Assembly: GCA_025399215.1 (NCBI GenBank)
Contig: MU621239.1
Coordinates: forward strand, 2,902 to 41,979
DNA length: 39,078 nt
Source: Globomyces pollinis-pini
Taxonomy: Eukaryota; Chytridiomycota; Chytridiomycetes; Rhizophydiales; Globomycetaceae
Direction: 5' to 3'
The translations under genes and the position numbers were made by a program. The notes below the pieces were generated by a model. The model had not been told where the DNA came from, ran no database searches, and saw nothing but the letters and a program-made list of their open reading frames with translations. Shown here one piece after another: positions 8,109 through 38,810 of the stretch. Position 1 is the first letter of the stretch. Each line of letters starts with the position of its first letter.

Positions 8109-9023
8109 ATGAAAATATCAAACTGTGTATTATACTCCATCTATTCTACCATTGTCGCTGGACATGGATTTCTTATTGCTCCATCAGGGCTTAATGGACA
8201 GAAAGCTACCAAGGTCAACGTCCAAGGAGCACCTTGTGGTCAAGTTCAAGGTGACTTTCCACCATCAGCTGCAGATATGGCTGCGGCTGTTGCAACCTTA
8301 AGACCGGGTGATCCAGCTGCAAAGATCACATACGTGATTCAAAACGGTGACGGAGCGGGACCTGTCAATATTCAATTCGATCAAACTGGTCAAGGTAATT
8401 TTGATCCTGCCAACAATGTTACTATTACCCAACAAGTACCGGGAGAATTGGGTCGAATTAAAGGGGTACGACGTGAACCTCAAGAAGTCGTTTTCCAAGT
8501 TCCAGCCAATTTGAACTGTCCCAATGGATGTCTCATGCGTATCTCACAAGCAGATCGACAATTTGGTGCATGTGCAATGATTAAGACGGGTGCTCAGACT
8601 GCCATTCCCGAACCGGAACCTATTCAAGGTAAACGGGGCAAAAAGGGCAAGAAAGGTAAAAAAGCCAAGAAAGGAAAGAAGGGTAAGAAAGGAAAGAAAG
8701 GAAAGAAGGGGAAGAAGGGAAAGAAGGCTGCGGAGGAAGCAAATGCTAATGCTGGTGCAAATGCTGCTGATGCAGCAAATGGAGCTGCTATCACTCGTCG
8801 CCAAGTTGATCTAACTGAGGAGGAAGCTGCTCAGCTGGATGCAGCAGCTGATAAAGAAGATGGGTTGGTTCGTCGCCAGGCAGATCTGACTGAGGAACAA
8901 GTTGCTCAACTGGATGCAGCAGCCGATAAAGAAGATGGGTTAGTTCGTCGTCAGGCAGATCTGACTGAGGAACAAGCCGCTCAACTGGATGCAGCAGCTG
9001 ACAAGGAAGATGGATTAGCTTAA
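8109..9023 (+). CDS. Egh16/Gas1-like secreted protein with Kex2-type repeats
   Basis: Intronless, 304 residues. A signal peptide (about 1-18) precedes HGFLIAPSG, so the mature chain would start at His19. Residues 19 to about 160 match the Egh16/Gas1-like (DUF3129) pattern by recall: NGDGAGP, QVPGE, and VPANLNC followed by paired cysteines and FGACAMI. In other fungi this family is secreted, often at infection or cell-wall contact, with unclear biochemistry. A tract of about 30 residues made almost only of Lys and Gly (8625-8730) follows, then an Ala/Asn-rich linker. Three 25-residue units come last, each starting with RR at residues 230, 255 and 280. The 23-residue inserts begin QxDLTEE and end KEDGLV or KEDGLA. 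RR is a classical Kex2 site, so the tail could release three near-identical acidic peptides. A role as structural repeats is the alternative. Confidence 0.75.
   Translation: MKISNCVLYSIYSTIVAGHGFLIAPSGLNGQKATKVNVQGAPCGQVQGDFPPSAADMAAAVATLRPGDPAAKITYVIQNGDGAGPVNIQFDQTGQGNFDPANNVTITQQVPGELGRIKGVRREPQEVVFQVPANLNCPNGCLMRISQADRQFGACAMIKTGAQTAIPEPEPIQGKRGKKGKKGKKAKKGKKGKKGKKGKKGKKGKKAAEEANANAGANAADAANGAAITRRQVDLTEEEAAQLDAAADKEDGLVRRQADLTEEQVAQLDAAADKEDGLVRRQADLTEEQAAQLDAAADKEDGLA
8625..8730 (+). repeat. Lys/Gly-rich codon tract
   Basis: Nearly pure AAG/AAA and GGN codons encode KKG-type repeats inside the Egh16-like gene. The tract should be strongly cationic and could bind anionic cell-wall polymers or nucleic acid. 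Replication slippage could make its length vary between strains. Confidence 0.8.
8796..9020 (+). repeat. Three 75-bp tandem coding repeats
   Basis: Three units start at 8796, 8871 and 8946, each 75 bp and each beginning with two Arg codons. The protein units differ at only a few positions (V/A, E/Q). The last unit ends in GLA and stop. Confidence 0.9.
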
Positions 9024-18595: not shown

Positions 18596-20620
18596 TTACA
18601 TAGGTCGGCTGTATCCATAACGAGGAACCGGAGGGATAGTGATTACAGGATTGGCAGTAGTTGTAGTAGTAGTGGTTGTTGTGACCGTTGTGATGGAAGA
18701 AATCACAACAGGCTTTTTGTAAGATCCATTATCAGGAGTAGAAGTGTTTACAGGGGCTACAGTAATAACGGACGTTACTTTGTAAGTGACAATGGCATCA
18801 GTGGTAGTTGAAGTAGATTTGGTAGTTGTGATTTGGGCCACGGTGGTTTGGGTTGATTGAGTAGTGGTAGTTTGACTTGCGGTGGTTGCTGGTTTAGTAG
18901 TTTCAGCAACGGAGGTTGTAGGAACGATGGTGGAAGCGGTTGCGCTTGTGGTAGTAGCGATTGATGAGGAGGACACTGTGGTAGTTCCGGCAGAAGATGT
19001 ACTTGTGATCGTGACAGGACTAATTGTGGTGCTGACGAACTTATCAATAGGTTCATCTTTGGCATCACATTTACTGCAGAGGGCACAAAAGATTTCCTTT
19101 CGACCAGTATCAAACAAGCTGAAGGTCTTTTTGTTGATTGGACTACTGGCAATAAGATTGATAGCATGTTGATGGAATAATTCCAAGTTAATCTTGCTCT
19201 TCTTACATTTTCTAAATTTTCCAGTGTTCAATTCAATTCCCAAGCTGTTATCCAAGTCCAAAGCCAGTTTAAAATTAACGACTTTGAATAATTGTAAATC
19301 AAGGGAAACACCAGGAATTAAATGAACAGCCGTACGGACTTGAATGTCTTCGGAATGTTTGAAGCCGTGATCGTTCAATTTTGGAGAGGAAGTGGAGGTA
19401 AATGTAGGCTTAGCAAAAAGTCCACTGTTGGATTCCATGGCAAAGTTAAATGGGAATTGGAAGTCATATCCAAAAGAAAGATCAATGTTTTCTTGGTTTC
19501 CCAAAGACAATGCGGTATCCAAGTTAAGGGATGGACCTAAGCTGAAGACACCAGGTACACTGAAAGGGAGAAGTGACTTGGCAAATAAAGTCTTTCGGAT
19601 AACTTTGACATCATTGAGTTGCTTAATAGTAATATCAACATCCATGTTGGCATTTAATTCTCCAAACAAACTTAATTTGTAGGATTTAACGACAATCAAT
19701 GTTGCTTTGATTTCCATTCGTAAATTGGCATCACCTCTTGTGTGGCAATCGCGACAAGCGACAGACACAAATTTGTTTGATGGGACTAAAGGAATCAATG
19801 GATTGATAATGGATTGTGATTGCTTGTCGAAGTTTACATCCATAGGTAAAGTAATGGTTTTATCAACATCGCTGTTAGCAACTTTGTTAAATCCATCTTT
19901 AATTTCATTTCCGACCTTTTTGAATCCATCCTTAATACCTTCACCAACTTTCTTGAAACCGTTACCGACTTTCTTAAAAAAGTCACCGATGCTTCGCTTA
20001 TCAAGAGCTTGAGGAGTTTGAGTAATATTCACAGTGTATTCTTTAATCACATCTTCAGTTTTTAGGGGGTTGGTATCAATAACCAATTTTGTATCTTCTT
20101 GTTTTAAGTTCTTAATTCCACGAGTGACAAATTCTTCAGATTTACCACAATTGAACTACAGAATTAGAAATATATATATGATTACGTCATGACCAATGAA
20201 AAGGGCCATATCTTGAGTTTTGGACCAAGCGTCCAAAGCCTTCTTGGCGTTTTCGGCCAAATCAAAGTTGAGTTTAATATCATTTTCACCACATTCAACT
20301 TTGTTGATCATAGGAAAGTTACGCAAATTCACAGTTGGTCGCAACGCTTCAAATTGAAAATCAGCATTGATTAACTTTTCGGTGTTCGTATTTTCGTATG
20401 AAGCAAGGAATTGAGTGTTTGCTTGATATCCTTCGCGCTTACATGGTTTTCCAGATAAGACAGCGGGAGGAGGTGGAGGGGTGTTGAACAAAGGAGCAGG
20501 TTGTTCTTCAGCAAGTGAAGCAGTGTTTCCAGCTTTCTTGTGATGGCATTTTCGCTTGTGAGTAGTATCAGCCAAAGCACTGATGGAAAGAATAGAATAC
20601 ACCAAGTAGTTCAATTGCAT
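18596..20620 (-). CDS. Secreted Ser/Thr-rich protein, paralogue A
   Basis: Two exons joined across one 30-nt intron (20156-20185) give 664 residues. A signal peptide (about 1-17, ending SALA) is followed by a basic His/Lys stretch (KRKCHHKK), a short PPPPPAVL motif, and a conserved domain with VECGENDIKLNFD and a cysteine just after the intron (NCG). A dibasic KR at residues 198-199 is followed by a Lys-rich amphipathic stretch (200-237) built of repeated FKKVG and IKDG units. A second, larger domain follows with DCHTRGDANLRM, PFNFAMES and HLIPGVSLDLQLFKV. The last 150 residues are mucin-like Thr/Ser, ending RYGYSRPM. The two-domain plan resembles fungal DUF7029/DUF7223-type surface proteins, from memory. 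The KR looks like a Kex2 site that would separate the two domains. It is a clear paralogue of the gene at 25623-27546. Confidence 0.8.
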
Positions 20621-25622: not shown

Positions 25623-27546
25623 TTACATTGGACGAGCGTATCCATATCGACCAGGTGGACGTGCATAACCATTGTTTTGATTGGTAGGAGTGCTTGAAGC
25701 GGTTGTGGTGGAGGTGGTGGAAGTGGTCTTGCCATTATCGGGGCCTAAACCAACAGTAGTAGTAGTTGATGCTTTGGTGGTAGTGGTAGTGATGGATGAT
25801 GTAGTGTGTACTGCAGATGTAGTGACTGAAGTTGTCTTGACTTCAGAGGTAGTGGTTGCAGTAATAGCAGCAACAGATGCAGTAGTGGTGGTTGAAGCAA
25901 CAGTAGTAGTGGTAGCAACTACAGTAGTGGTAGAAGCCTTAGTGGTAGTGGCAGCAGCAGTGGTGGTAGTTACAGTAGCAGTAGTAGTGGTGGTTATAGC
26001 AGCTGTAGTGGTGGTAGTTACAGCGGCAGTAGTGGTAGTTGTAATAGCCTTAGTGGTTGTAGACGCAGGTAAGGTCAAAGTTGGTCGAGAACCAGGGAAG
26101 CATTTTTTACAAAAGAAACAGTGAATTTCCAATCGACCAGTATCAAACAAAGAATAAGTTCTAGTCTTGATTGGAGTAAAGGTAACCAAGTTAATAGCAT
26201 GTTGATGATACAATTCAATGTTGACAGGTTCTTCAGGACATTTTCGGAAACGACCAGTACTGAATTGAACACCCAAACTGTTGTCCAAATCAAGAGATAA
26301 TCCAAAATTCAAAACTTTGAATAATTGGAGGTTTAAACTAATGGCAGGGATTAAATGAACAGCAGCTCGGATTTGAATATCTTCAGTATGTTTGAATTCA
26401 TGCTGGGTAATGACAGGAGGTGGAGATTTGATAAATTCCGGTTTGGCAAACAAACCATTATCAGATTTCATTTCATAATGAAATGGGAATTTCAAATCAT
26501 AACCAAAACTGACATCAATTGGTTCTTGGTTTCCAAGAGAGATAGCAGTATCTAAATTGATGGCAGGTCCCAAATTGAAAATACCAGGGATACTAACAGG
26601 TAATAAGGACTTTGCAAATAAGGTTTTTCGGAAAACGTTAAAATCATCGAATTGGTTGACATGAATGGCAATATCGATATTAGCATTGAAATCACCAAAC
26701 AAGCTAAGGGAGTAGGAATTGACGATAAACAAAGTAGCCTTGATTTGCATTCTAAGGTTGGCATCACCTCTTGTGTGGCAGTCTACACAATCAATGGATC
26801 CAAGCTTGTTGGATGGTAACAATGGAATGATTGGTTTGATGATACTTTGGGTAGCTTTATCATAATTGACATTCAATGGAACAGTGAACGTTTTATCCAC
26901 TTTTGGGTGAATCAAATTATCCCACCATTCTTTAAAACCACGCTTTTCGATTTCTTGTTGACCAGATTGTGTAATATTGACTGTATATTCTTCAATAACA
27001 TCTTCTTGTTTCAATTGATGAGTATCAATCACCAAAACATTTCCATTTTGTTTGACTTTATCTAATCCTCTAGTATTGACTCCTTCACCACCACATTTAA
27101 ACTAGGGGTTAATGATTGTTTTGCCTTACTTCGTGTCCAATGTAGAATGCTAAATCAGGAGTGGCTGACCATGCTTTGAAAGCTTTTTGAGCATTATCTG
27201 ATGAATCGAAATTCAATTTGATATCATTTTCCCCACATTCAACTTTGTTGATCATTGGAAAGTTATGAAAATTGATGGTTGGACGTAAAGCTTTGATTTC
27301 AAAATCAGCATTGATCAATTTTTCGGTGGTAGCTTTGACGTAGGAAGCATAGAATTGTGAATTTGCTTTATAACCTTCTCTAGCGACTGGTCGCGCTTGC
27401 AAAACTACAGGTGGAGGTGGAGGAGTGGTGTAAATTGGTTCTTGAACTTGCTTTGATTTTTTATGATTACATTTATGTTTATGAGAAGCGTCTGCTGAAA
27501 CTGCAGTTGCTACAGCAATCGTGTAAATCAAGTTTGTCAAGTACAT
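25623..27546 (-). CDS. Secreted Ser/Thr-rich protein, paralogue B
   Basis: Two exons across a 28-nt intron (27102-27129) give 631 residues. The intron sits at the same place as in paralogue A (18596-20620), just before a conserved Cys-Gly. Shared features: signal peptide, His/Lys stretch (HKHKCNHKK), TPPPPPVVL, VECGENDIKLNFD, a KR site (192-193), DCHTRGDANLRM, HLIPAISLNLQLFKV, a mucin-like Thr tail and a terminal RYGYARPM. The difference is after KR: here the chain reads GFKEWWDNLIHPKVDK, without the Lys-rich FKKVG repeats of paralogue A. The Thr-rich codons produce long valine frames on the opposite strand, which are shadows. Function unknown; a cell-surface glycoprotein is likely. Confidence 0.8.
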
Positions 27547-29435: not shown

Positions 29436-30247
29436 TCAATCGAAAGCTTTGTTGAGTTGTCTTCCAATAGATCCAATGCATACAGATGCTGAATAAAGTA
29501 TCGAAGGAAACCATGAAGTAATACCCATGAAATCTTGCTGTTGAAACCTAAACTGTTAGACAATTGAATATGATTTGATCATATAGACAAGTAAAGATTA
29601 TTGGGATAATAGAAATTAAACATAAAAAAAGGTATTATAAAATGTACCTAAAAACACCTTGAAGAACCAATATTGAAGCAACATTTGTAGCGCAAGCACT
29701 AACTACCATTGATAAAACACATCCATGAGAAGTACGGTCAAATAAATACCAGTATCCTAAACAGATAAAAGCAATTGAGATTGGTATAGGAGATGATAGT
29801 TTCTTTTTCAGTGTTAATAAAAGATTAAGAATTACCACCACAGCAATATTGACACCTAAATCTTTAGAGTATGAATTGAATACCTATTAATTAATACATT
29901 AGAGAGTACCTATGAAAGCACCTAAACTACGTAAACATTTTGACCAATTTGTGTTTATGTTTAATTTCAACTTTTGATCCACCTTTTTATGTTAAAATGT
30001 TGAAATACCTAAAATATTTTTAATCAAAAAAGCAACAAACCTAATTAAAATGAGATATTGAATTTAATACCAAAGGATATAATAAACCTATTAAACAAGC
30101 ACCGAATCCAGAAGAAGCATAAACCCATACCGGATGAGTTGTTTGAGTTGGCCAATTAGTTAAATTATTAGAGGTTTGTATGTAATCAAATAATCCAGAA
30201 AATAAAAATCCAAATGAGAATAAAATCATACATTTTAATATCAACAT
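29436..30247 (-). CDS. INSIG-family sterol regulator
   Basis: INSIG proteins sit in the ER membrane and hold HMG-CoA reductase and, in many species, the SCAP-SREBP complex under sterol control (Nsg1/Ins1 in yeasts). The model joins exons across two tandem intron arrays (29983-30070, three units; 29856-29909, two units) and one 100-nt intron (29548-29647), giving 189 residues. Matches in order: GLLYPL at the end of the first two membrane spans, CLRSLGAFIGVNIAVVV, CLGYWYLFDRTSHG, LVLQGVFRF, then SWFPSILYSASVCIGSIGRQL at the C-terminus. Six membrane spans can be drawn. It lacks the cytosolic N-terminal tail of animal INSIG, unless an upstream exon is missing. It neighbours PHO81 on the same strand (69 nt between its ATG and the PHO81 stop). 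Confidence 0.9.
29856..29909 (-). other. Tandem intron array, two units (INSIG)
   Basis: Two back-to-back GT..AG units, 26 nt (29884-29909) then 28 nt (29856-29883), meet as AG|GT. The exon codon split around them (G|GT = Gly) restores GAFIGVNIAVVV, a conserved INSIG block. Both units must be removed to give this block. Confidence 0.8.
29983..30070 (-). other. Tandem intron array, three units (INSIG)
   Basis: Three contiguous GT..AG units in transcript order: 30041-30070 (30 nt), 30009-30040 (32 nt), 29983-30008 (26 nt). The flanks are GLLYPL and VDQKLKL. Keeping the first or the second unit puts a stop codon in frame, and keeping the third shifts the frame. Each unit alone has the length and ends of a normal intron of this genome. 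Confidence 0.85.
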
Positions 30248-30316
30248 TTAAAAGTAAAAAGATTCTTAATACCATCATGTGAAGCTTTCATGTGAAAAGT
30301 TAAACACGAAAAAAAT

Positions 30317-33300
30317 TTAAACATTCATGTTATATTTGAATATACCATCTACTATAACTGCATCTACTCCATTCTGCTCTTGCATAGATATATTCTCTTG
30401 ATCTTTATTCTTATTACCAAATGTTCCCAAAATTAATCCACTCTCTTTAATAGTTTGAATTAATACTGGCATTTCAAGCTATTCATTATTATTAATAATC
30501 ATTACCAATGGTTGAGATTCACATATCAATCCTAATAAATCACACTCTTTCGCAAATTTAATAGATTCTTTGATAGATATCAATAATTCATCTTCGCGAT
30601 CATATCCACAATAGGTTCGAAAGAAAACACCATAGTTAGGTTGCTTCCAATTCATAACTGTACATAACGCTTTGTTGAAACTGGAAAAAATAATGGAATG
30701 ATTCTTTTCTTGAACTTGTTCGGTATGATCATAAATAACTTTCAATATAGAATCTACAAAATTGTTAATATTCATACTAGTATGAATGAATTGCTTTTCT
30801 CGTTGATAGGGAGTTGGATATTTTAATATAATACTAATTCCAATAGTAGTTGGTAATTTCTGTAAAATTTAAAAAAAATTAAAACAAACCTGTAAAATTT
30901 CTTCCAAAGTTAAAAATGATGAATAGATCCATTCAATCAACTCTACCATTCCAATATCAGACTTTAATTCTTCATATTTCTTCACATTTGGATTTAATGA
31001 TTGAAAAATAGATTTGGCTTGATCATAATTTAGCATCGATAATAGGATATCAACATTGAAGATTTTGATGTACCAATTCGGGTATACAACCAATTTATGA
31101 TCTTTAGTAGTTTGTACCACGAGTTCGAAATATTCTTTATCTAATGACGTGGAAGTGACTAGTGAATGATTTAAATCAGATTGATGTGATTTCGAAGTAT
31201 TGGTGACAACAGTGATAGCTTTCCAATAAGTCTCGATTTTACCACCAATCTGTAATGCATGATGACTGAATGGTTTAACAATCGATAACATGAATGATAA
31301 CTCCCCAATGATTCGTAAATGATTATCAAATATGGTTGTTATATATTCTATTCCTTCAATTCCATCACCATTCTTTTCCTTAATTAAATTCTTTAGTTGT
31401 GATGTTGTTATTCCACTCTTTCCGAATGTCTTTGTTCCAAAGGCCGGATATATATCAAACTCAAATGATAGATCTTGTATCTCTTCCAATGTGTATGAAA
31501 ACACTGTAACATCATCCTTTAGAGGCAAATGACAGAAAAACGAAAGATCCGTCTCTGGTTTACAAGTTATTTTCAATCGTAAAGATGATAATTGCTTTGA
31601 CCCATAAAATCTGACAGGTGAAGGATTTGTTGCCTTGCGGTATTGTCCAAGTTGAATTTGAATTAAATACTTTTTGTCCAAGTAATGATGACCACTAAAA
31701 TAATCAGGTACCAAAGACTTACTAGATTCTTAATGGAATGATAGGTGGTGGTAGGGACAAAGAAGGTATATCATCCAGGTCAAGCGAGATGATATTATCT
31801 AGGGGATCTTTATCCATCACTGACTCTTGAAGTCCATTATTCTCCAACAAGCATACATTGCTAGGAACTGATTGATTCGAATGGTTCTGTCCATCACTCA
31901 CATTGGTATCCTTTACAGTCAGTAGCTCGGATGCCTTCATATGTCCTCGATATAAACTATAAGTCCAAGGTAACCATTCATGCTCATCTTTGATACGTAT
32001 AACACAACCAGCTTCAATCAATAATTTGATACATTCCACATGACCCTCTGAAGCCGCAAAAAATACAGGAGTCCAACCATAAAACGCATCCTTTGCTTCA
32101 ATGTTAGCCCCATGTTGGATCAATCGACGAGTAATATCACTTTTTCCTTCTCGACATGCCAAATGCAATGGATAGAGTCCATCAATATTTGGAATCAGCT
32201 GGGCACCTTTCAATAACAGTAAATCTACAATTTGTAAATGTCCATATTGACAAGCCAAAGAGAGTGGAATAGGTGAAGTGGCAGATGATGGTTCAAACTC
32301 TATCGAATTTTGCTCCAATAAGGTTAAACAACATTCAATATGTCCATTGATGATGGAATAGATTAAAGGTGAATTTCCATCTTGATCAATAACATTACTA
32401 TTTGCTCCAACTGAAATAAGAAATAGACATATTGCTTGATGTCCATACATTCCAGCATAATGCAACGGGGTCCGTCCATACACATCCGTGGCAGAAACAT
32501 TCGCCTTAAAGATTAGTTTTAAAGAAGAAACCTTATATTCTATTGATAATTGAATCGCTTCAAACTTTCCGGCAATAGCCAATTCATGCAAACATGTATG
32601 ATCACTAAAACCATCTGTTAAATTACAATCGACCTAAAGGTATCAGATTTTGACTTTACCTATAGAATAGTAAGAACACTGCGATTTAATACCTGAAAAT
32701 ATCAACAAAACGATATTGACTCTTACCAAATTAGTGTCCAATAACAATCTTAAGAGATCCACATTCACTTCTGTACAATAATCCAAATAAACTCTTGAAA
32801 GCACATCAGCATTCAATACATTGGTTTCGAGGTAACGATTTAACCAAACTTGATTAAGATTGTTATTAAAGAGTAACGAAATTAATTCAGATTCAATATC
32901 ACTGAAAACTGCGGATGATGATTTTTCAATTTTAGAAGGTTTAGAAAGTTCTAAAATCTCTGGATTCGTATTTTGAAGATAATTTTCCAATTCGGCTAGA
33001 TGATTGGAAGCTTTATCTGCTAATTCAGTCAATACTTCATTGTTGAAACATGGTTGAACTTCAATCTGTCGACTAAGATAGATTTCTTTGGTGGAAGATT
33101 TAGCACGTTTATCCCATTTTTTTAAAATCTTTTAGGTTATTTAATAAAAATGAATAATGAACCTTTCTAAATCCAGTTGCATTGACTTCAACAAATTTCT
33201 AAACAAAAATATGAGAGAGGTTGGTGAAAATACTTGTAATTTTGCTAGATCGATTTGAAATTGTAAAAATGCTTCTTTTAGAGTCAATCGAGAGGATGTT

Positions 33301-33910
33301 GCTAATCTAGGGTTGATATTCATAGGTGCATTTGATTTTTTGATTAAACTATCCAATCGTAAAGTGAATTCATTTTCTTTCTGAATGTAAAATTCATTGA
33401 CCTAGAAAAAGTTAAGTAATGTTAAAAAGGTCAAGTAACATCGATATGTGATATATATCATGGTCGTATCAAGATAAGTCTAATAAATTGAATTCCAAAA
33501 CATTGAAGATTGATTTTCAAATTAATGAACTTTACCTTCTCTAATTCTCTCTCCAATTTGAAAAAGAAAGCAGTTTTAGTTTGGCTTAATTGAGAAGATT
33601 CCTGAGAAGTGATTCCTAAATATAAGCAAAGAAGATCAAAAACCAGGTGGATTGGAAGCAGCTAACATGGTGAATTTAACAGTTGAAGGTGATTCATCTT
33701 CTGCCTTCCCAATTATTTTCTTCAAACCTTTGTAGTTCAAGTAATGCGGGGTAGCCCATTCCTGCGCAACGGATTGAATGTATTTTCCAAACTAAAGATG
33801 AACAAGTAACAAACGTACCTGATGAATTAATTAGTCATTGGGTACCTAGTATCAATCAGCCCATTGCAAATAAATACCTAAATAATCAACTAGGGTCTTT
33901 ATACCTTCAT
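30317..33910 (-). CDS. PHO81: PHO81/NUC-2 phosphate-sensing CDK inhibitor
   Basis: PHO81 inhibits the Pho80-Pho85 cyclin-CDK when phosphate is low, so that Pho4 can act. Nine intron positions (two of them arrays) are removed to give 1023 residues, an exact reading frame. The SPX domain (1 to about 185) starts MKFGKYIQ, with WATPHYLNYKGLKKII and the inositol-pyrophosphate-binding KFVEVNATGFRKILKKWDKR. Six or so ankyrin repeats follow (TPLHYAGMYGHQAI, PLHLACREGKSDI, GWTPVFFAASEGHVECI). The C-terminal GDPD-like domain begins near YGHHYLDKK and ends GVDAVIVDGIFKY. The order is that of yeast Pho81 and Neurospora NUC-2. The first exon codes only Met-Lys (33905-33910) and is followed by a four-unit intron array. 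Other introns: 33616-33643, 33402-33535 (134 nt), 33199-33233, 33129-33162, 31695-31722, 30860-30889, 30479-30505. Confidence 0.94.
32634..32726 (-). other. Tandem intron array, three units (PHO81)
   Basis: Three contiguous GT..AG units in transcript order: 32693-32726 (34 nt), 32660-32692 (33 nt), 32634-32659 (26 nt). They sit between LLLDTNL and VDCNLTDG, the link from the SPX/linker region to the first ankyrin repeat. Retaining the first, second or third unit produces an in-frame stop each time. Confidence 0.87.
33402..33535 (-). other. 134-nt intron in PHO81
   Basis: The longest intron in the window, between LERELEK and VNEFYIQKEN in the SPX domain, where other PHO81 proteins are continuous. 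It has no internal AG|GT junction, so it is not a clear array. An internal TTATTAG at about 56 nt could be the remains of a first unit. Confidence 0.75.
33792..33904 (-). other. Tandem intron array, four units (PHO81 start)
   Basis: Four contiguous GT..AG units in transcript order: 33878-33904 (27 nt), 33846-33877 (32 nt), 33819-33845 (27 nt), 33792-33818 (27 nt). They connect a 6-nt coding exon (ATGAAG) to TTTGGAAAATAC, restoring the universal SPX start MKFGKYIQ. Removing only the first one, two or three units leaves an in-frame stop within a few codons. Confidence 0.87.
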
Positions 33911-34990
33911 TCAATCTGGGTTGTTTTGGATGATTTCCTTTGGGTTTTCATTTTTCTTTTTCCTGTGGGTTCGAAACGTGGTCTCGTCCTAACTGTTGAT
34001 TGGCCAATGCTAATATTCCCCCCATAACACCGGAATTCCTTTGGTTTCTTGGATACCTGTTATTCTTAAGATTGTTAATATAGTATCCTCTCTTTCTCTA
34101 GCATGTTGGTCGAATCGACACAAAACGCGTACATTTGGATATCCTGAGCATTGGATTATTTTTAATTATAGGTTTGTGTTATGGAATTGAATAGTGTTCG
34201 TCTTAAAAGTACGCTCCACACTCTTCTATTGTTGATACAGATCTAATATTTGTTAAAATGCCTAAGTATGACCAACAGTTTCAGTCGTTACTTTAAGAAT
34301 TCAAATAATGGCAATACAAGAAGCAATAAAGTATTGAGTGCTTTAAAAGTGAGAGTTATTGAATTTCATCAGTTATACCGCACCAATAATTTGAACCAAT
34401 AAATCACATGCATACGTATTTTTCTATACTATTCTCTAGTCTATGGAGAAATAGTATTCAGCACTATTCAGCACTAAGTATTGGAATATTTATAAATTTG
34501 GATAGTCCATAAAACCATCCAGTTTTCTTTGGACTAATGATGGGTGAAATGGTTGAACTGTTCAATCATTTACTTAGTCAATACAAAGTTTATTAATGAA
34601 GTAAACACTTGTAATGTTATCATATTGTCAAACTGTACGTCGTTATCATATTGTCAAACTGTACGTCCTTGTATATTTCGCTTAGATAATGGACGAATAT
34701 TAATAAAAAACGTATACTTCAACCCTGTTTGATCTTGTTGAAAGGAGTTTTCACCGGGAACGGTACGAAGGGATGAACCTTTATGCCAAATCAGTGCTTT
34801 TTTGGATTTTTTTTAAGAGTGAGATACTGTTAACTAATTCGTAGTTCGTAATTAAAAACATTAGCTAAAGAGAGTGTGAAAGTAACAGTTGAAAATTAAG
34901 CTTGATTACACATGCTCAGCCGAGTTTATGGCTTTGGTAATCTCTTATCAAACACAAGTATTTATGGGTCTATCACAAAATCGATTTATT
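33911..34990. other. 1.1-kb intergenic stretch
   Basis: Lies between the PHO81 start and the 3' end of the zinc-finger gene. No coding model was found. It should contain the PHO81 promoter and holds a 26-bp tandem duplication at 34616-34667. Confidence 0.45.
34616..34667. repeat. Exact 26-bp tandem duplication
   Basis: Two identical 26-bp copies, 34616-34641 and 34642-34667, starting GTTATCATATTG and ending CTGTACGTC. Both copies lie in intergenic sequence about 0.7 kb upstream of PHO81. Confidence 0.85.
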
Positions 34991-36760
34991 CTAATCAGAA
35001 CATAGCAAGCCAGGGGTGGAGTCTACAGAACCAACTAACAGTGCATTCAGTGCCATTGAAAACTGTGGTCTAATATGATCACTCTCCATCAACCGTCCAT
35101 CACTGTTACTCAATTCGATTCGATAAAAACGTTTAGGTTCTGATTTTGTCCTTAATATAAATAATGTTCGTGTTCCATTCTTGAAATAAATACACGTTTG
35201 GTCTAATGCCGTTTGTTTTGAGACAGGTTTCCCGTATACTCGGTCGTAGAGTGATTGTGTAAAAGAGGATCGCTTTCTGACCAATCCATGTTCATTTTCG
35301 ATATCATCTAAAGTAATGTTTTGAAAATGCTTTTTGCAGATCGTAAAAAATAATTCAGAGGTGGAAATGTCATCATCAACAATCAAATTCTGTTTCTGTT
35401 TGAATTCTTTCAAACTTTCGTAAAGGGATCCTAACGCATCGGCTACGTATGGCCATAATTCATTGCTTTCTTGCAAGGAGCCTGCTCCTACTACTAATGC
35501 TTGATAAGTCATCAGTATTTCTCGAAGATTCATCTCATTTACGATCACCTAGCAGTTATATAATTAAAATGTTACAATGTCTGTTCCATCGATTGATATC
35601 TCTGACATGTCCCATGAATAATCCATTTCAGACAATTTTTGGGCTTCTTTGATTCCCAATGGTGCTATGATAAGTTACAGAATTTAATACCATCGGAAAA
35701 TAAATCTATTGGTTTGTTTACCAGCAGTAGAGCATGATTGCTATCATGGTCATGAACACATTCTTTACAGAATGACTCTTGTGTAATACATTCCATGCAT
35801 TGATATCGAATTCCATGAATAACTCTAAAATTAAGCCAGAAAAAGGACTACCTAGTACATAGTTCACATCGATATCCCCAATGAATATTTTTCCATCGAT
35901 GGTCTTTAGGTATAATAAAATTAGAATACAATGTAGCCAATTCATTTGCTTTTTCAATCCTCAGTTTTGTTTTAATCCAAGTCATTGAAGAAATGTATGG
36001 AATAACAAACATACAATTTGGTAAAGTCAGAGTCTTTGCTTTCTTAATTCCACAATAATCGCAAAAGTATTCGATTTGGTTGTTGTTTAAATATACATGA
36101 AGAGTCAGCAGAATTGCATTTCTGCATTCCAAGCATTTGAAGGAAGGCAAATCCGAAATGGTATCATTGACGACAATTTGACAATGGTCGTCTATAACGC
36201 ATTGACAAGTTCCCCTTCTTATAGAACCTGGAGTTTGGGTATGATTAACATGACAAGTATCGATACATGCCTAATGTTAGTTTAAATGCTTACCATACAA
36301 TAATCACCTTTACAGTCCAAGCAAGTGAATAATTTTTGTTCAATAGGATTCAGTCCTTTGGTTAGTTACTCTTCATACCTGTAATCTGTAAAGTACAACG
36401 CTGACTTGACATTCGACTAGCCAAGAAATGATTCAGCATAATCTGTGTTGCCTCTTGTATCAAAAAAGAGTTGGCTTATTAAATATGTGGTGCCATTGTT
36501 TCATTACCGGATCCAAAAAGCACCGATTTCTTACGTTCTTTAACAGAAACAAACGTCTTGGGTTCAATTTGATTCTCGATATCCAAGCATTTGTTCTGGT
36601 AGCAGCTGCCGTGTGTTTTGTATTTGTGTATGGTCTAGATGACTTTGTGTCAATTCCGCCCCTTTCTTTGTTCCAAACAACATGTAAAATGTCACCTTGG
36701 ACAACAACTTCAAAAAACTCCTTAATTTTGGTTTACCGGAAATTTTAGATTATTAAGCAT
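34991..36760 (-). CDS. UBR-like and ZZ-type zinc-finger protein
   Basis: The part from 36439 down to 34991 is firm: introns 36356-36378, 36271-36293, 35825-35851, 35665-35690 and 35549-35575 (23-27 nt) join it into one frame. It extends upstream through a 33-nt intron (36475-36507) into KERKKSVLFGS; a weaker model adds a 38-nt intron (36606-36643) and a 16-nt one (36721-36736) to reach the ATG at 36760, 518 residues in total. The middle has a UBR-box-like cluster (FTCLDC, ACIDTCHVNH, GTCQC), a CxxC finger (FKCLECRNAI, FCDYCG) and a ZZ-type finger (YRCELC, YQCMEC, FCKECVHDHDSNH). The C-terminal 190 residues are of an unknown, mixed helical and strand type. UBR boxes read N-degrons and ZZ fingers bind N-termini or histone tails, so a role in N-end recognition is possible, but no RING or HECT is seen. 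Confidence 0.6.
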
Positions 36761-36928
36761 TGAATTTTTTTGTGATAAAATATCTCTTCATTGTGTTTTA
36801 GATAGTTGTTTACTTGAACATTTATTGAAATCGAAGCGGTGTCGGAAAATTAAAACCCCAATGGATCAAGTGAGCGCTAATGTTTATATCAAGACTCATT
36901 TAACTTTTTTAACTTTTGCGCGTTCAAA
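36761..36928. promoter_or_regulatory. Divergent promoter region
   Basis: About 170 bp between the likely start of the zinc-finger gene (-) and the PRM10/ThrE start (+). It would serve both genes if the upstream model of the zinc-finger gene is right. No specific motif was identified. Confidence 0.35.
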
Positions 36929-38810
36929 ATGTCTTACAATCGATTAATTGAAGAGGATGAATCACCTGAAATTACAAGTCCAGATACAATAGACTTAAAA
37001 CCTGATACTAAAATACAGGTTGATATTCCTCCGGTTCTAACAAAACAATCCGCAGAAGTTCAGCTCAGGGCAAATAAACCCGGTATTCTTAGTCGGATGA
37101 TACCGTCAGGTAAATTCAAAGTAACTAAAGACTAGCGAGCCTGCTAAGAAGTTCAAGCGGAACGAGCACCAGGGTTCCATTAACCAGGGCATTCTCTATG
37201 CCATGGACAGCAGGTGGATTACCAAAAGACCAATTACATGCTCAATTGGTTAATGACATTGCCGGATATCTACTCAGTTTCGGAGCGCCGAGCTATCGGG
37301 TTGATGCCAGATTAAAGGATATCGCTACAATGTTGGACGTTCCTTTCACGGCATTCTACTTACCAACGAACTTTATGCTTTCTTTGGGAGATGGATCTGT
37401 CAAGCATCCTTCTCGAACGACATTCCATGCTGTCTCGCCTACGTGGGTATCTTTACAAACGTATGCTAACTATATAGAATATGGGAAAGTATTTACATGT
37501 AAAGAATTGAACAATCTAGGTTGTTGCATTTGGATAAATTTGCCAGAGACATTCAGAAAATAACCAGTAAGAAATCACAAAATGCCGAAATTGAAAATCA
37601 ACTGTTAGACTTATCAAATAAACTTAAAGTCATTGTTGCTGAACCTTCAATATACCAAAACTGGCAAGTCATACTCTCTTGCTCCGTACAAGCTGCTTGC
37701 TTGGTGATGGTCATCTTTAACGGGGATTTTGCAGATGCAGCAGCTTCCTTTTTACTGGGTGGATTTGCATGTGGAATCAATTTATTTGCCTCAAAATATG
37801 CGTCTAGTTTAAGTAATATAATAACCTACGCACTAAACATTTCAAGGTATGATATCTCAAATTAAATGCTAGGTACAACGATCTTTGTCTCTTTTTTTGT
37901 ATCTTTATTGGCAACAATAGTAGGCAATCAAATATTCTGGAAATGGTAATGAACTGAGTGACTGAATGATAGGACAGGAAATCAAGGAATATGTAATGAA
38001 ACAGTGATTATCTCCAGTTTGGTACTTTACCTGCCGGGAACTCAGTTTGCAGTGTCTTTGATGGAAGTTGGTTATGATTTTGCTGCTGCTGGTGCGGTGA
38101 GGATGTTTCTCGCATTCGTAAAATCAATGCAATTAGGGTAATTCAGTTTTATCGATTTATCTATCTTAGATTCGGTATTTCTGCGGGATCTAAGACTGCC
38201 ATATACTTGATGGATTTGGCAGGATTGTGGGATGCAGAAGCTCATGCATCTGTATGTGAACCAGCTAGGTACAAACCGTGGTGGATTATGCTATTTTATT
38301 TACCAGTATCCCATTTTGTTGCTTAACAATCAGATGACATTTGCTACACTTATTAACTTGAAGAGTGTCCCCATTCAATGGCCGACAATGGCCTTTGTAT
38401 CTACAATTGCATTTTTTACATTACAAATTTGCAAAATGAGTTTCAATGTCGTATGCATGAAACTTTGGTTGAATTTTAGGAATTATCCTTGATTGTGACT
38501 TCGTTTACTTTGGGTGTTATATCAAACTATATCGCCAAGACTAGAAATGAAGTTGCATTACCCTCAATTATGGCTGGTAATCATTTTGAATGTAATTTTA
38601 GGCATTATGTGGATTGTGCCTGGTGGTATTGGGGCACAAGGAGCTGCTGCTGCATTTTCAGATGATGGGGGTTCCGATTTCATGGTTGAGGTACTTCGAA
38701 GAAGTTTGTCAATGGTTATTGGTTTATATATGGCAAATTTAACGATGAGTCCATTGGTGTCACTTCTCCAGACACCAACCACTGATTTAGATAAAGATTT
38801 AGACGTGTAG
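36929..38810 (+). CDS. PRM10: PRM10/ThrE-family membrane protein
   Basis: The family (DUF1212/DUF3815, bacterial threonine/serine exporter ThrE) is membrane-embedded; the fungal members are named after yeast pheromone-regulated Prm10 and their substrate is not settled. Nine intron positions (37110-37135, 37447-37477, 37489-37519, array 37813-37872, 37946-37972, 38138-38169, 38306-38333, 38448-38479, 38577-38601) are removed to give 529 residues. The order is: a disordered N-terminus; the cytosolic family block HAQLVNDIAGYLLSFGAPSY, PTNFMLSLGDGS and NMGKLLHLDKFARDI; then about ten membrane spans, with DAAASFLLGGFACGINLF, VVIISSLVLYLPG-type and GAVRMFLAFVKSMQLGFGISAGS segments, and the final IVPGGIGAQGAAAAF. 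NMGK sits on an 11-nt exon. Confidence 0.9.
37813..37872 (+). other. Tandem intron array, two units (PRM10)
   Basis: Two contiguous GT..AG units, 37813-37846 (34 nt) and 37847-37872 (26 nt). Using the second unit alone leaves the frame out of phase with the downstream TTIFVSFFVSLLATIV span; removing both restores SSLS joined to TTIFVS. It is weaker than the PHO81 and INSIG arrays because one 60-nt intron would also fit. Confidence 0.65.

Follow-up and report, generated by a model that had tools for sequence, protein, structure and literature searches.

The window analysed here is a 39,078-nucleotide stretch of the genome of the chytrid Globomyces pollinis-pini (Rhizophydiales; G000:C150:2902-41979 of the 18.5-Mb assembly), in which an INSIG gene, a PHO81 gene and a PRM10-like gene carry arrays of very short introns that abut one another at AG|GT junctions. 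An initial annotation had described five intron positions in these genes as runs of contiguous GT..AG units. Re-checking of the unit coordinates bore out all five, together with the unit size of 26–34 nt; the unit counts of 2, 3, 3, 4 and 2 had been misassigned, and the correct counts are 3, 2, 4, 3 and 2. The genes and features are as follows, in window positions.

29635..30229, minus strand: INSIG gene model of the gene finder, with two arrays and a single intron at 29803-29835; the public protein starts further upstream.
29983..30070, minus strand: INSIG array 1, three abutting introns, 30041-30070 (30 nt), 30009-30040 (32 nt) and 29983-30008 (26 nt).
29856..29909, minus strand: INSIG array 2, two abutting introns, 29884-29909 (26 nt) and 29856-29883 (28 nt).
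30317..33910, minus strand: PHO81 gene, with SPX and ankyrin; a GDPD Pfam accession is precomputed for the public protein P0003.
33792..33904, minus strand: PHO81 array 1, four abutting introns, 33878-33904 (27 nt), 33846-33877 (32 nt), 33819-33845 (27 nt) and 33792-33818 (27 nt).
32634..32726, minus strand: PHO81 array 2, three abutting introns, 32693-32726 (34 nt), 32660-32692 (33 nt) and 32634-32659 (26 nt).
33402-33535, minus strand: single PHO81 intron of 134 nt, four to five times the usual size, with no AG|GT units.
36929..38810, plus strand: PRM10-like gene, with a ThrE domain; the name PRM10 is that of the initial annotation.
37813..37872, plus strand: PRM10-like array, two abutting introns, 37813-37846 (34 nt) and 37847-37872 (26 nt), in YASSLS / TTIFVSF.

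The PRM10-like product is identical over the whole 449-residue query to the public G. pollinis-pini protein P0001, from which exactly the array 37813..37872 is absent; the array is also absent from P0002 of Globomyces sp. JEL0801. Public protein P0003 lacks exactly the 93 nt of PHO81 array 2, located in LLDTNL / VDCNLTD, and P0123 lacks exactly the 88-nt INSIG array 1 (exon flanks cctttg and gtggat). PHO81 array 1 (113 nt) sits between MK and FGKYIQ at the start of SPX, and its removal yields MKFGK, a start found in six of eight aligned public PHO81 rows, drawn from at least 120 matches; the remaining two, P0003 and P0007, begin further downstream. At these positions the initial claim that the protein is restored by removal of the whole array stands. 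At INSIG array 2 (54 nt; exon flanks tcatag and gtgtca) the public model tells against it: P0123 leaves the array unspliced, reads into the first unit and stops. The INSIG model matches Pfam PF07281 (E 7.7e-20), and with array 2 removed the match spans residues 1-129 of 139, across the join, which favours removal of this array as well, despite the public model.

Gene models were obtained with a self-trained gene finder run on 289 kb, comprising 200 kb of C1, 50 kb of C3 and the window; the finder-based figures below refer to this sample. With a flat length prior of 18–160 nt the finder called 632 introns. Of these, 498 measure ≤40 nt, and the lengths peak sharply at 29 nt; the 129 introns >44 nt in this run include merged introns and other artefacts. 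Intron sizes are tight, mostly 23–36 nt. Donors are mostly GTAA or GTAT, a TAAY-like branch site lies mostly 6–9 nt before the end, and the acceptor is mostly TAG. The comparison set of single introns holds 644, of 22–40 nt only. The array sample holds 15, namely 13 from the finder and the two INSIG arrays, added by hand since the finder missed INSIG; five of the 15 come from the window, which was itself chosen for its arrays.

Candidate calls in the window were checked against public proteins. The finder's extra PRM10-like array at 37083-37135 (plus strand) was rejected: only 37110-37135 (26 nt) is an intron, and the first 27 nt (37083-37109) stay coding, as GILSRMIPS, in P0001 and P0002. This coding segment has the look of an intron unit, running from GT to AG over 27 nt and abutting the 26-nt intron at AG|GT. 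A 105-nt PHO81 intron call proved to cover a 36-nt exon flanked by introns of 35 and 34 nt. The 134-nt PHO81 intron is certain, as LERELEK|VNEFY is conserved and the public model agrees, and its existence rules out a strict upper intron length as the cause of the arrays.

To what extent abutting introns exceed chance was measured by chaining, in which a second intron was allowed directly after the first or after a k-nt spacer, with site scores lacking exon-context terms. Spacing 0 gave 24 chained junctions with a log-likelihood gain of 93.4, against 0–3 junctions and a gain of ≤7 for each spacing of 1–12. Outside the window alone, spacing 0 gave 17 junctions (gain 70.1), again against 0–3 each (gain ≤7), an excess beyond chance that satisfies one half of the refutation test set by the initial annotation. 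Under a flat prior of 18–80 nt, 10 junctions were found at spacing 0 and 0–3 at other spacings; the chain elements then measured 24–34 nt (8) or 49–63 nt (10), with none of 35–48 nt, and the longer ones are read as merged unit pairs. The false junction at 37083-37135 is still contained in the 24-junction counts and in the decay and outside-window runs, and was left in the offset and flat-prior 18–80 nt runs; the false array was dropped from the signal-score and unit-similarity comparisons.

Genome-wide, a strict pattern requiring two CTAA branch sites matched 82 times at spacing 0, compared with 29, 35 and 25 times at spacings 1, 2 and 3; the reversed-pattern control exceeded the pattern at each (202, 98, 145 and 153), and only the comparison between spacings is used. 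A first, looser pattern search was uninformative, with the reversed control (567) above the pattern (267). CCCTAA telomere-like repeats among the matches (G000:C222:13112-13143 and a few others) are chance matches to the branch-site word. Ten arrays lie outside the window in 250 kb, which extrapolates to ~740 per genome (Poisson range 360–1,360), and in the sample arrays make up ~2% of intron positions (15 arrays versus 644 single introns). These results confirm that the arrays are real, frequent and not confined to the window.

A second set of arrays was selected by pattern, from 40 loci with 48 of the 82 strict-pattern matches (six multi-match places, then the list in order). Thirty of the 48 matches were called as array junctions, in 24 arrays that are biased towards CTAA branch sites and repeats; of the other 18, nine were called as donor only, five as acceptor only and four as neither. 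The 15 sample arrays comprise seven of two units, five of three, two of four and one of five. The 24 pattern-selected arrays reach ten units, in an array of 314 nt at C102; two others consist of seven units and two of five. Array lengths range from 53 to 314 nt, and the units (n = 130) average 29.2 nt with a range of 24–36 nt, partly set by the finder's length prior, which favours 24–36 nt. Arrays fall within conserved motifs, and the conserved proteins read through them. The ten-unit array splits the codon of the D in a kinase DFG motif. Further arrays interrupt MARK|IIH of a MEK-like kinase (five units), FFYQ|ADD of gamma-tubulin (four units) and SVEFDE|FYLLM of an EF-hand protein (seven units), and in a kinesin a two-unit array divides the codon for the first P-loop glycine.

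The units have the features of U2-type introns: a GT donor, a branch-like site at a set distance, an AG acceptor and an intron-typical length. Branch scores of later units (n = 26) are like those of the 644 single introns (p 0.74). Unit lengths spread over all frames, with 13, 15 and 14 of the 42 sample units leaving a remainder of 0, 1 and 2. The downstream exon starts with GT in 8 of 15 arrays but in only 74 of 644 singles (p 1.3e-4), and outside the window in 4 of 10 arrays versus 66 of 582 singles (p 0.02). An upstream AG is not enriched in the same sample (7/15 arrays versus 202/644 singles, p 0.26).

Based on these data, we propose that the arrays consist of complete U2-type mini-introns of 24–36 nt that abut at AG|GT and are separated by zero-length exons. 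Each unit would be recognised by intron definition and excised as an intron of its own. Splicing of one unit would restore the donor or acceptor of its neighbour at the junction, and the array would shorten by one unit at a time, in either order, until the flanking exons are joined. Arrays would grow by tandem duplication of whole units: with AG|GT on both sides of a unit, duplication between these short repeats would add a working intron and leave the protein unchanged, and the units would then drift apart except at their splice signals. For diverged arrays, those of the window included, duplication is the presumed origin.

Duplication of whole units is directly visible in some arrays. Two 55-nt dimers within the seven-unit EF-hand array are 100% identical, and clearly similar neighbouring units occur in arrays at C15, C31, C59 and C120. 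Among the pattern-selected, repeat-biased arrays, 11 of 64 adjacent pairs lie above the 99th percentile of between-array pairs (one array counted as 61+24 was split into 30+31+24 before this comparison). Identical dimers, similar neighbours and GT-starting downstream exons are consistent with duplication between the short AG|GT repeats at either end of a unit. The initial annotation had noted that the units show no similarity and had concluded that simple duplication does not explain them; the observation holds for the window's units, and the conclusion is too strong given the identical or similar units in other arrays.

The other origin to be weighed is insertion instead of duplication in place: pre-formed introns, introduced by reverse splicing or as introner-like elements, would have entered existing introns at AG|GT proto-splice junctions. 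Insertion at such sites would equally leave an excess of GT at downstream exon starts, and adjacent units in the sample are dissimilar, showing no similarity beyond random intron pairs (27 adjacent pairs, one with p <0.05). Insertion of new introns at AG|GT had also been put forward in the initial annotation. Among the 644 singles of the 289-kb sample, which is the part of the genome searched, no source copies were found: units of the sample arrays match the 644 single introns no better than 100 random singles do (best-match means 12.74 and 12.84). Together with the clear in-place duplication in other arrays, this leaves insertion a rather unlikely origin, though one to be taken seriously.

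Three repeats of related size or structure were noted elsewhere. A perfect 26-nt tandem duplication, the size of an intron unit, lies outside predicted genes at window 34616-34667; short duplications of unit size thus also occur outside introns. At L031 (C319:6301-7800), leucine-rich-repeat-like coding repeats have a period of 98, and the finder places an intron ending in CTAG at two of them, as if exon and intron had been duplicated together. A 32-nt minisatellite at L024:6962-7123 (C3:46962-47123; 93% matching) has a unit that resembles an intron start plus branch site, without the AG.

Whether the internal junctions are kept by selection bears on how the arrays are removed. If an array were one intron, its internal AG|GT sites would be free to decay, and with neighbouring sample units no more alike than random intron pairs there would have been ample time for this; the scarcity of decayed forms is taken as evidence that the sites are maintained. 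The twelve single-base decay forms of the internal AG|GT account for 0–2 junctions each and 10 in total, as against 24 intact ones, and none of the 10 lies inside the window. Four of the six decay-form junctions that were printed have a part >60 nt and look like artefacts. The internal AG|GT sites thus appear maintained, which fits stepwise removal, and on this sequence evidence the units are likely removed one by one.

Several observations weigh against the proposed mechanism. Two decay-form junctions (CG|GT and AG|CT), with parts the size of units, may represent decayed arrays, and the AT|GT form shows a gain of 17.0, although this comes from two junctions that both have parts >100 nt. The maintenance argument assumes that the units were once alike or that the arrays are old; it fails if the arrays are young and were built by insertion of unrelated introns, for which the 289-kb sample yielded no source copies. 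Among 27 adjacent unit pairs from the sample, the window's included, no duplication is visible. Donors of array units tend to be weaker (mean 0.67 in later and 0.62 in first units versus 0.96 in singles), a difference that is not significant for later units (p 0.086), and TAG acceptors are less common in array units (0.62 and 0.67 versus 0.76). The gene finder produced at least one false array, that at 37083-37135. Raw AGGT in long predicted introns is only marginally the highest count, 47 versus 43 for TGGA. About ten other long introns look sound by eye, and the real 134-nt intron means that the splicing machinery can clear introns of the length of many arrays, so that one-step removal is possible. 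In human introns <1,000 nt, conventional-splicing lariats are reported to outnumber recursive ones (PMC10156609).

One-step removal would make each array a single intron cut between its outer sites, with the internal AG|GT as relics of its origin. Besides the 134-nt PHO81 intron, on which conserved protein and public model agree, and the introns of 45–113 nt seen by eye, this account can draw on fission-yeast introns born from 24-nt tandem repeats and described as spanning four and two duplicates (PMC4974935), whereas the source paper treats the in vivo state of one such intron as unsettled (PMC3629103). Under neutrality and with diverged units, junctions changed by one base should outnumber intact ones, which is the reverse of the 10 versus 24 seen; moreover, later units resemble single introns in branch score and are not significantly lower in donor score. 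We consider this account improbable. It is very unlikely that the internal AG|GT are instead dual-specific sites for alternative splicing, with units sometimes kept as small exons or poison cassettes in a regulatory role. Sites of this kind, usable as donor or acceptor, form a tandem AGGT array in human UBC (PMC10809524), and the intron-adjacent 27-nt GT..AG segment at PRM10-like 37083-37109 is coding in two public models; against this, the 42 unit lengths show no frame preservation (13/15/14), and arrays lie inside conserved motifs, where unit retention would break the protein. That a reader seeking AG|GT has by chance split up ordinary long introns is scarcely credible, since with full intron signals required on both sides the enrichment is confined to spacing zero and up to ten units stand in a row, even if raw AGGT in long predicted introns is barely above words of the same letters.

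Mini-intron arrays that are spliced unit by unit and have grown by tandem duplication are, as a whole, the best explanation and in our judgement a reasonably probable one. Its directly observed footing consists of the contiguity of the units, the excess at spacing zero, the unit size and signals, the restored conserved proteins and the whole-unit duplication in some arrays. On a bolder version, in which the intron is a self-multiplying cassette (an 'intron minisatellite' with AG|GT borders as repeat ends) that is cleared by obligatory recursive splicing in ~29-nt steps, we are evenly divided. If it holds, recursive splicing would serve the shortest introns of this genome rather than the longest, at hundreds of arrays, perhaps >1,000.

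Work on recursive splicing has centred on very long animal introns, in which intermediates are scarce. With mini-introns of similar size, up to ten per site, single short RNA reads would suffice to show in what order and direction splicing proceeds and what minimal spacing it allows. The arrays also offer a visible route of intron gain, in which an entire intron is copied between its AG|GT borders and the protein stays unchanged, and a single genome contains the whole range between identical dimers and fully diverged units. There are consequences for gene annotation as well: public PHO81 P0003 begins downstream of array 1 and public INSIG P0123 stops inside array 2, and automatic annotation seems to trip on arrays in places. 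Elsewhere in the window, three 75-nt coding repeats with LDAAADKEDGL-like units lie in a lysine-rich protein at 8795-9018 (plus strand), and two similar genes with threonine-rich tails lie close together at 18596-20620 and 25623-27546 (minus strand).

The AG|GT junctions share the geometry of zero-nucleotide recursive splice points, as the initial annotation had noted. In fly ratchet points, a juxtaposed acceptor and donor AG|GT restores a donor after the first step (PMC8605326), and the juxtaposed AG|GT present here would do so too. According to that account, the fly sites are found predominantly in long introns and need a cryptic RS-exon, whereas the arrays of this fungus have units of 24–36 nt, total lengths of 53–314 nt and up to ten units in a row, and no very long host intron; in arrays of at least three units, the next unit's donor lies ~29 nt downstream. 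Recursive splicing in human introns <1,000 nt shows that the process is not confined to very long introns, but it is described there as a minor and stochastic mode, and minimal-intron arrays do not figure in the sections of that account consulted (PMC10156609). Related, too, are complex intervening sequences, among which abutting U2 introns removed by recursive splicing are named as a class (PMC6616335). They are contiguous with no exon between them, as here, whereas the references given in the relevant part of that paper are to large Drosophila introns and a recursive-splicing review; the G. pollinis-pini arrays are frequent and made of minimal introns.

Stwintrons are a known kind of fungal complex intron (PMC7138796). 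These and the Lipomyces complex introns are described as nested (PMC7138796, PMC5639578, PMC9024468), whereas the units here abut, and the suggested kinship to donor-nested stwintrons found no support: modelling of donor-nested forms only gave no complex introns in the 289-kb sample at each offset of 1–5, compared with 13 at offset 0 and 0–2 at offsets 6–12. Tandem repeats with splice sites at their borders have been described as making introns, as in a paper on a potato gene (PMC4974935) and in fission yeast with 24-nt AGGC repeats (PMC3629103). The placement of splice sites at tandem-repeat boundaries in such AGGT-segment duplication supports duplication by units. In the cases described there, however, the repeats are mainly exonic and one intron results, whereas here whole introns are multiplied and stay separate. 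Human UBC resembles the arrays in its regular series of AGGT sites, but its units are coding monomers described as included in variable number (PMC10809524), while the units here are absent from the conserved proteins. Introners and introner-like elements share the multiplication of introns (PMC9860276); in the 289-kb sample, the many near-identical intron copies across genes that mark introners were not found, and the array units show no sequence kinship to other introns. In line with the initial view that such arrays are undescribed, no description of contiguous minimal-intron arrays was found among the literature matches listed, a body that covers few subscription journals. We conclude that the arrangement in G. 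pollinis-pini adds a new form to those of abutting or recursively spliced introns.

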